Positions 7,065 through 56,172 of a stretch of DNA of 64,000 nucleotides are shown in pieces. Both the position numbers and the translations under genes were made by a program. Numbering within the stretch: the first letter of the stretch is position 1; each line of letters begins with the position of its first letter. The stretch is from assembly GCF_007993045.1 (NCBI RefSeq), contig NZ_VOOR01000012.1, positions 1-64,000 on the forward strand, given 5' to 3'. The notes beneath the pieces were generated by a model that did no database searches, was not told the DNA's origin, and saw nothing but the letters and a program-made list of their open reading frames with translations. Origin of the DNA: Phaeodactylibacter luteus (GTDB lineage: Bacteria; Bacteroidota; Bacteroidia; Chitinophagales; Saprospiraceae).

Positions 7065-7410
7065 GGGCGCCAACCAGATTGTCGTTTTTTTTTTGGGGGG
7101 CCTGCCCCTGCCGTGAGGGCAGGTGCCGCTATGCTACGGGGCTCGCTCTTCGCTCGGCCTTATCAGGCCTGCCGCCCCTTCGCAGCGCTAGGCCAATGCC
7201 AGGCTAGTGGTCTGTCAAGTGTTAATTTATGGGTTGAGTGGGAGCGAATTTTGAGGCTAATCAAGGCGGATGTTCCCGCGCATAGCAGCGCTACGTAAGG
7301 GGTTGTCCAACGAAGAGTAGCCTCAAAAGCCGCCGCAGGCAACCCCTAGTTTTAGCCTTGACAGACCACTAGAGCCCCAAAAGCATAAACGCCTGCGGCA
7401 CTTTGGTTCT
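7065..7410 (+). repeat. Intergenic structured repeat, copy B, interrupted by a palindromic element
   Basis: Copy B has the complete left end (gggcgccaaccagattgtcg, T9, hairpin). After ccaggctag it is interrupted by a 161-bp element plus a duplicated ctag, and it resumes with agccccaaaagcataaacgcctgcggca. Without the insert it would be about 181 bp, like the other copies. It fills the whole gap between the convergent exporter permease and lipoprotein genes. Confidence 0.85.
7208..7368. mobile_element. 161-bp palindromic element (MITE-like), copy 1, in a CTAG target
   Basis: The element is bounded by 12-bp perfect terminal inverted repeats (tggtctgtcaag / cttgacagacca), with ctag directly on both sides (7204-7207 and 7369-7372). 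The empty site is visible in the uninterrupted repeat copy at 50558-50731, which reads ggctagagccc. Inner segments (gggttg, ttttgagg) also pair, giving an imperfect stem of about 45 bp. The central 66 bases carry the blocks ctaatcaaggcg and aacgaagagtag, shared with 55814-55974. It encodes no protein. CTAG targets with TA or CTAG duplication are typical of IS630/Tc1-mariner-type mobilisation, which is an inference here. Confidence 0.75.
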
Positions 7411-8389
7411 ATTGGCCGGCAGTGCCAGGGAAAGCGCTCAGCTTGAGCGAGGAGCGCCGGCTCATGTCTTCCAGGCGGTTGTACTTCCAATAAGGTTCAA
7501 GTATTGTGGTGTCGAGCTGGGCGACGGTAGTCCGTACCTTTTGGTCGAAGGCAGAAGGGTAGGCATCTGTCCAGCCCACAATTCGGTAAGGGGGCTCTTG
7601 CTCAAAGACAATTTCAAGGGTGCGCTGCAGCTTGGGGTATTCGAGGGTATAGCTGCGCAGCCCGGCCCCTTGAAAGCGGCTGCCGCTGTAATCGCTGAGG
7701 CTGCCTTTGGCCTGATAAGCTTGGAATGGCAAGTGTTTTAGCCGGATCACCACAGTAGAGGGGATGACTTTCACGGGCCCAGTCGGCAGGCCATCCGGGT
7801 TGATCCGGATGCGGTTGAACAGCTCGTCTTCCAGCACGGCATAAGGGATGCTGGCTTCTTGGTCGCCTTCGTTTTCAAAATAAGAGCGCAGCTGCATACG
7901 GTACTGTCCGCCCTCGTAGTTGAGCTGCATAAAAGCCTGCCCACACCAGTCTTGGGCAGCGGTAGCTACTTTGAGGGTTTGGGGGAAGGCTTGGGCATTG
8001 ACCGGGGTGAAGACGGAGGTCATGATGCTGTAGTCATAGAGCCCGGTAGGGAAGCGCCGCAGGAGGTTGGTTTTTAAGGCTCCAGTGCTGTTGGGGTTGG
8101 TATAGTTGTCGTTTTTGACGTGTTTGTCGGTCAGGAAATCCTCAGTGACGAAGATGGCGATGGCTTCGCCGGGGTGGATGTCCTGGTAGCGGTTTTGCGA
8201 AAGCGTATAGCGGTTGATCTCTGCTTTTCCCTGATACCAGTAATCGCTTAGCGCCGGTGCTTTCTCTTGGCTCTTGAAGGCCATTTCCATGGGCTCAGCT
8301 TGAGGGGCTGAATTGGATTGGGGCTCGCCCGGGGAGGTACAGGCTGCAGCAGACAGGGCAAGCAGCCCCGCAAGGATTTTGGTTTTCAT
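7409..8389 (-). CDS. Lipoprotein of unknown function
   Basis: I do not recognise a named family. The 326-residue protein has a lipoprotein signal peptide (MKTKILAGLLALSAAAC, lipid-modified Cys17). A short acidic linker and a beta-rich soluble domain follow, including LSDYWYQGKAEINRY, LLRRFPTGLYDYSIMTSVF and AAAQDWCGQAFMQLNY. The second half includes LKHLPFQAYQAKGSLSDYSGSRFQGAGLRSY and a C-terminal FEQEPPYRIVGWTDAYPS. The repeating strand pattern suggests a beta sandwich exposed to the periplasm. The stop codon overlaps the end of repeat copy B. The next gene downstream in transcription is convergent, so it is probably a single-gene unit, perhaps read together with 8480-9043 upstream. Confidence 0.75.
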   Translation of the reverse strand: MKTKILAGLLALSAAACTSPGEPQSNSAPQAEPMEMAFKSQEKAPALSDYWYQGKAEINRYTLSQNRYQDIHPGEAIAIFVTEDFLTDKHVKNDNYTNPNSTGALKTNLLRRFPTGLYDYSIMTSVFTPVNAQAFPQTLKVATAAQDWCGQAFMQLNYEGGQYRMQLRSYFENEGDQEASIPYAVLEDELFNRIRINPDGLPTGPVKVIPSTVVIRLKHLPFQAYQAKGSLSDYSGSRFQGAGLRSYTLEYPKLQRTLEIVFEQEPPYRIVGWTDAYPSAFDQKVRTTVAQLDTTILEPYWKYNRLEDMSRRSSLKLSAFPGTAGQ

Positions 8390-55777: not shown

Positions 55778-55813
55778 ACACATGATGCGCCGGGCCTTCA
55801 GGAGCTTAGCTAG

Positions 55814-55974
55814 TGCCTCAAGCCATAAATCCTTGACACCCCAAGTTTCGTTATTTTCCGTCTACTCTTCGTTAAAGAACCGCTCCTTTAGCTCGGGCTA
55901 AAGTCGCGAACCTTCGCCTTGATTAGCCGGCAAATAACTTCAACTTAAGTATCAGAGATTTATGACTTAAGGCA
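55814..55974. mobile_element. 161-bp palindromic element (MITE-like), copy 2, in a CTAG target
   Basis: Same length as the element at 7208-7368 and likewise flanked by ctag on both sides (55810-55813, 55975-55978). Its reverse complement shares ggctaatcaaggcg and aacgaagagtag with copy 1 at nearly the same internal positions (47 against 48, and 102 in both). The arms are different in sequence from copy 1. They still pair with each other over about 40 bp (tgcctcaagccataaatcc against gatttatgacttaaggca), and most mismatches are of the G-U type. No coding capacity is seen. Confidence 0.78.
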
Positions 55975-55990
55975 CTAGGTGACTGAAAAA

Positions 55991-56172
55991 GAGCGTGAAC
56001 GAAAATACCGCAGGTGTTGATGCTTTTGGGCTCTAGCCTGGCATTGGCCTAGCGCTGCGCAGGGGTGTAAGCCCGATAGGGCCGAGCGGGCAGCGAGCCC
56101 CGGAGCATAGCGGCACCTGCCCTTGCGGCAGGGGCAGGCCCCCGAAAAAAAACGGCAATCGGGTTGGCGCCC
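55991..56172 (-). repeat. Intergenic structured repeat, copy J
   Basis: Reverse copy with gagcgtgaacgaaaatacc at one end and acggcaatcgggttggcgccc at the other, and an A8 run next to the hairpin. It begins 12 bases after the end of the second palindromic element. Confidence 0.87.

Follow-up and report, generated by a model that had tools for sequence, protein, structure and literature searches.

RUP, a repeat of Streptococcus pneumoniae and its close relatives, is a non-autonomous transposon (MITE) of the insertion sequence IS630-Spn1 (PMC2229807, PMC3049150). The transcripts of other small intergenic repeats, namely BOX (which is modular), NEMIS/Correia, ERIC and YPAL, fold and can affect neighbouring mRNAs (PMC2229807, PMC3049150). 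Bacterial MITEs are usually regarded as transposons that have become defective and depend on nothing but their ends. We analysed a window of 64,000 nucleotides of Phaeodactylibacter luteus (NZ_VOOR01000012.1, positions 1 to 64,000) that holds two 161-bp elements, A and B (Table 1). Both resemble RUP in their size range (about 100-200 bp), high copy number, IS630-type ends, TA target and single long hairpin paired through its ends.

Element B is an imperfect hairpin between two CTAGs. The initial annotation had reported it at 55810-55978 with a length of 161 bp, CTAG flanks and the same core blocks as the element at 7208-7368, all of which were present. It had also set the blocks at almost the same internal positions in the two elements; the spacing agrees with this (41 nt in B vs 40 in A), and the orientation, which it did not mention, is inverted in B, where the blocks are on the minus strand. 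Self-pairing involves 58-nt arms of 72% complementarity in B, and 33 + 19 nt in A. When folded as RNA, the core strands of B and A reached the energies in Table 1 with z scores of -11.9 and -9.7, respectively, and in both cases 0/200 shuffles were as low.

Table 1. Coordinates of elements A and B, their parts and an empty target site in the window.
Feature	Position	Strand	Remark
CTAG, left edge of element A	7204..7207		Read in sequence
Terminal inverted repeat of A, left, TAGTGGTCTGTCAA...	7205..7236	+	78% over 32 bp vs 1264-bp IS630 (G000:C279, L369)
Element A, 161-bp MITE	7208..7368	+	Core strand is plus; fold -88.3 kcal/mol
Conserved hairpin module of A	7249..7328	+	Covariance model R1, 91.3 bits
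Terminal inverted repeat of A, right	7340..7371	-	90.6% over 32 bp vs 1264-bp IS630 ends
CTAG, right edge of element A	7369..7372		Read in sequence
CTAG, one edge of element B	55810..55813		IS630-type TA duplication within CTAG target
Terminal inverted repeat of B, plus-strand left edge, TAGTGCCTCAAGCCATAAATCCTTGACACCC	55811..55841	+	Resembles 1369-bp IS630 ends
Element B, 161-bp MITE	55814..55974	-	Core strand is minus; fold -85.1 kcal/mol
Conserved hairpin module of B: helix 1, internal loop, stem 2, terminal hairpin	55854..55934	-	Covariance model R1, 85.0 bits
Core block 2 of B, AACGAAGAGTAG, 3' side of internal loop	55862..55873	-	Block-pair search
Core block 1 of B, GGCTAATCAAGGCG, 5' side of internal loop	55915..55928	-	Block-pair search
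Terminal inverted repeat of B, other edge, TAGTGCCTTAAGTCATAAATCTCTGATACTT	55947..55977	-	17-18/20 nt vs IS630 ends
CTAG, other edge of element B	55975..55978		Read in sequence
Empty CTAG target, ccaggCTAGagccc on minus strand	56033..56036		Insertion-free copy of host repeat holding element A

The exact pair of core blocks was found at least 112 times in the P. luteus genome, and a reversed control pattern 0 times; the pairing of the blocks is not due to chance. Elements A and B represent two near-identical, high-copy families in this genome, where most of the 75 distinct copies have CTAG on both sides. Insertions of the IS630 type duplicate TA. Within the window, one host repeat is present both with an insertion (7204-7372) and without one (56033-56036), and such empty sites place the insertion point at C-TA-G. 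All of the insertions were intergenic (0/63 and 0/44 inside genes).

Some copies had unusual arrangements. A hybrid that adjoins the IS630 partner (L269:2015-2183, on G000:C279) combines the left arm of a B element with the core and the right arm of an A element, and its junction is inside the shared core block. Two B copies (G000:C57:7992-8047 and G000:C68:2456-2506) are shortened by loss of the module's terminal hairpin and retain both core blocks. Tandem A+B (or B+B) elements, 165 bp apart and with one common CTAG, were observed at G000:C90:101138-101368, G000:C280:92074-92305 and G000:C234:3871-4102. One A element of P. xiamenensis is joined directly to a sibling (L204:1322-1490) that is equally long and has ends of the same style (TAGTGGCTCAAG); the interior of this sibling differs (CTGATAAAGCCT ... 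AGGTTACATCAG), and it may represent a second class of core. The window also contains a second, unrelated GC-rich repeat of high copy number and ~150-200 bp (7080-7204 + 7373-7420, and 55990-56160). At its site GCCAGG-CTAG-AGCCC there were 21 A and B insertions in one orientation and 0 in the other, and at another CTAG of the same repeat there were insertions in both orientations. Either insertion is oriented or this repeat spreads together with its insert.

Partners for both families were found by their ends. The P. luteus genome has a 1264-bp IS630 element, encoding proteins with HTH_32 and DDE_3 (PF13358), whose ends match those of A over 32 bp (78-91%); it is this PF13358 element that is the partner, and no PF01609 partner was found in the genome. 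P. xiamenensis KD52 (L195, genome G734) belongs to the same genus, its match coordinates being equal to those of the same-genus genome G001. P. xiamenensis has three copies of the 1264-bp element with the ends of A, and also a 1369-bp IS630 element (L354, L361, L363) with B-like ends (81% over 26-31 nt), a relative of the insertion sequence of B. On the plus strand, the left terminal repeat of B has 16-17 of its first 20 nt as in the 1369-bp ends. The outer 20 bp were identical to the insertion-sequence ends of the other family at only 7-9/20 positions, and the A and B families each match a different IS630 element in the sequence of their ends. With no internal transposase gene, a length of 161 bp, at least 112 copies, IS630-matching ends and a TA duplication, element B is identified as a MITE of the IS630/Tc1-mariner type. 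We infer that an IS630 transposase would cut and insert the MITE in trans, as was likewise inferred from sequence for RUP and its resident IS630 (PMC2229807).

These matches changed the interpretation of the arms. The initial annotation had called the arms of A and B unrelated in sequence and had attributed this to compensatory change. The outer 20 bp are indeed as dissimilar as the 7-9/20 identities imply, and the inner 11-bp helices covary in one common architecture. Compensatory change therefore applies to the inner module of ~80 nt; for the outer ~32 bp we rejected it, because these are terminal repeats that A and B share with different IS630 elements. Significant sharing between MITE and insertion sequence in blastn was confined to the ~32-bp ends. 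At 45 loci that surround transposases of PF13358 or PF01609, the module was found inside no insertion sequence, and the two strong hits were neighbouring MITEs. That the MITE is a simple internal deletion derivative of its partner was rejected, since only the ~32-bp ends are common and the module is absent from these loci.

We located the module in other genomes by core-block search and then with covariance models. It comprises ~80 nt between the terminal repeats, and conservation is highest in an asymmetric internal loop with C(A/G)AGGC opposite AACG(A/C)AG. The covariance searches give lower bounds, among the candidates scored: at least 134/298 genomes of the same family (E 1e-4) and at least 56/369 gammaproteobacterial genomes (E 1e-6) carried the module. 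Copy numbers, each a minimum, were about 103 in Flammeovirga aprica, 57 in a Piscirickettsiaceae genome, 18 in Methylophaga, 7-12 in Paraglaciecola and 4 in Lentisphaeria. A phylum-wide Bacteroidota sample yielded P. luteus and just one other genome, which indicates a patchy distribution and bounds the false-positive rate. No Rfam family matched the window at gathering threshold or the A/B/C/D loci to E 1, and seven wider loci gave unrelated sub-threshold matches only; a known Rfam RNA family was rejected, as no curated covariance model matched. Our search of the open-access literature, which included the core letters, found no description of the module, and a plasmid search returned unannotated intergenic relatives only.

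The terminal repeats around the module vary. They include TAGACTTTATTC with a TA duplication and AGAGCGTGTTTAAA with a TNA duplication, the latter also terminating an IS5-like element (L142; PF13340 + PF01609), as well as GAAGCTGTTTGAA, TAAGTACTAGGACA, TAGGGCCTGTTAACA and others. Among the matches listed, no autonomous insertion sequence had the gammaproteobacterial TAGGGCCTGTTAACA ends. The initial annotation had suggested that the core is what is recognised, and this variety bears on a reading of the core as the recognition site of the transposase, with the arms as spacers. The core is the main sequence block common to families A and B, as such a site would be, but what the MITEs have in common with their IS630 partners is the outer ~32 bp; the partners have no core, and the same core stands under both IS630-like and IS5-like terminal repeats. 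We consider this role highly improbable.

Three gammaproteobacterial copies were observed in rRNA operon spacers, directly next to tRNA-Ile (L218:3083-3162 and L202:1785-1864) or between tRNA-Ile and tRNA-Ala (L322:1501-1580), with the tRNAs recognised by eye. Their terminal repeats were not recognisable, and in all three the anti-core strand is on the rRNA sense side. There are also 22-bp palindromes (TAGGGCCTGTTAACAGGCCCTA; G1088:C2:55625-55646 and similar), several per genome, in which two terminal repeats are joined without an interior and which are possibly excision relics.

Covariation was strong in the elements retrieved with the models (0.785 vs 0.214 shuffled), with 92.2% of cells paired and double changes in 25/25 pairs, and in the gammaproteobacterial set (0.940 vs 0.229 shuffled). 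Because model searches lean toward structure, we repeated the test on a structure-blind set of 35 distinct elements, which were chosen by core letters alone among the matches listed in a public-genome scan. Watson-Crick pairs occupied 408/490 flanking positions in this set, compared with a shuffled mean of 207 and maximum of 241. The initial annotation had proposed that selection maintains the structure of the hairpin, and had considered that further copies might lack an excess of compensatory pairs. The many further copies covary with a large excess of such pairs, and the internal loop formed by the core is indeed the conserved part.

The same 35 elements had G-T at 45 positions and A-C at 11, and position 1 of helix 1 was G-T in 14/35. 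In neutral alignments, the excess was in helix 1 (34 vs 5), and there was none in the inner stem alone (36 vs 30). The core strand outfolded its complement in 32/35 elements (P 7e-7), and in element B by 28 kcal/mol. The G-T excess over A-C and the better folding of the core strand together indicate that selection sees one strand folded on itself.

Palindromic MITEs can persist by their terminal repeats alone, and the correction of palindromes can mimic covariation. The core could on these grounds be functionless filler, inherited within an old palindromic MITE lineage and kept paired by template-switch correction, and the near-constant length of whole elements in Bacteroidota (about 160-170 bp) would suit such filler. 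However, correction would erase a mismatched internal loop, and the loop is the part most conserved across phyla. Correction is also strand-symmetric, yet there is more G-T than A-C and the two strands fold unequally well, and persistence behind unrelated terminal repeats would not be expected. We therefore regard filler as improbable.

The frequent G-U pairs fit RNA best, and single-stranded DNA would also fit a tolerance of G-T. The module may instead be folded single-stranded DNA with no RNA role, recognised by a protein as attC or REP sites are, within the same MITE anatomy and exposed, for example, at replication forks or during conjugation. One strand is favoured although gene strand shows no bias, and there are longer elements in which a single pair of terminal repeats encloses two modules inverted relative to each other, like REP pairs (L255:1501-1685, L239:255-438, L211:669-847, L341:2444-2628), both of which would suit DNA. 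The frequency of G-T at helix 1 position 1 is, however, above the tolerance expected of a DNA hairpin, and orientation relative to replication was inconsistent, with numbers that are small throughout (the leading strand was favoured by ~8 to 2 in G107 and by 4 to 2 in G987, and most copies were lagging in G860). We see folded DNA as a possible explanation and a rather unlikely one. By eye, the conserved loop contained no recognisable attC-type pair of GTTRRRY / RYYYAAC boxes, and the elements stand alone in intergenic DNA, in contrast to an integron cassette array.

Other candidate roles were rejected. A replication-strand bias was inconsistent across the three complete genomes, which have few copies. 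Insertions showed no gene-strand preference, either in P. luteus (31 vs 34) or elsewhere (26 vs 22), and a 3'-UTR or terminator role was rejected on this absence of bias. The inner arms run T-tract/stem/A-tract, which is the opposite order to a bidirectional terminator. A hammerhead-like ribozyme, to which CUAAUCAAGG...CGAA is superficially alike, was dropped as the module has a two-way internal loop and its key guanosines differ (judged by eye).

We hypothesize that the functional form of the module is a folded single strand, probably RNA, whose loop is recognised by a host factor and which serves the MITE; we give this reading a probability of about 60%. An IS630 transposase would move the MITE in trans via its terminal repeats, and the module would fold as a single strand, most likely as RNA upon transcription of an insertion. 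The internal loop would be recognised by a host factor that many bacteria have in common, and the module would serve the element itself, through survival or spread of its copies, whichever transposase moves the MITE. The indifference to gene strand counts against this hypothesis, as one might expect a bias if the RNA acts in cis. Also against it are the anti-core strand on the sense side in the rRNA spacers, the arms, in which we noticed no conserved promoter, and the inner stem, which by itself has no G-T excess. We see an even chance that the motif C(A/G)AGGC / AACG(A/C)AG, in its hairpin of ~80 nt, is a previously unrecognised structured RNA or single-stranded DNA and a transposase-independent passenger, coupled repeatedly to MITEs of different IS families across Bacteroidota, Gammaproteobacteria and Lentisphaerota because its interaction with a widely conserved host component raises the success of the element.

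Whichever strand type is involved, the module is indicative of a functional motif, in RNA or single-stranded DNA, that is as yet undescribed. A strand-specific interior structure that is common across phyla and transposase families would imply selection beyond the transposase. The motif provides a defined bait in a search for the host factor, and the covariance model could annotate many intergenic repeats that are currently unannotated.

Comparison with known systems places the elements closest to RUP in anatomy, with the difference that the RUP papers cited above report no internal module common to MITEs of other IS families or to other phyla. REP/BIME sequences with RAYT are likewise short, high-copy hairpins, and the longer gammaproteobacterial elements with two inverted modules recall them (PMC2817692). 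The IS630- and IS5-like terminal repeats and the target duplications of the present elements are, however, not known for REPs; such ends, with TA/TNA duplications, argue for transposases other than RAYT as the probable movers. The Caulobacter CIR repeat also has a conserved structure and motif within an interspersed repeat, but its two arms are separate and carry a GANTC methylation motif, and it is confined to alphaproteobacteria in the review (PMC2229807). BOX, NEMIS/Correia, ERIC and YPAL each have their own sequences at the level of a genus or family, whereas in the elements described here one loop sequence and its covarying helices recur across phyla and between terminal repeats that are unrelated.
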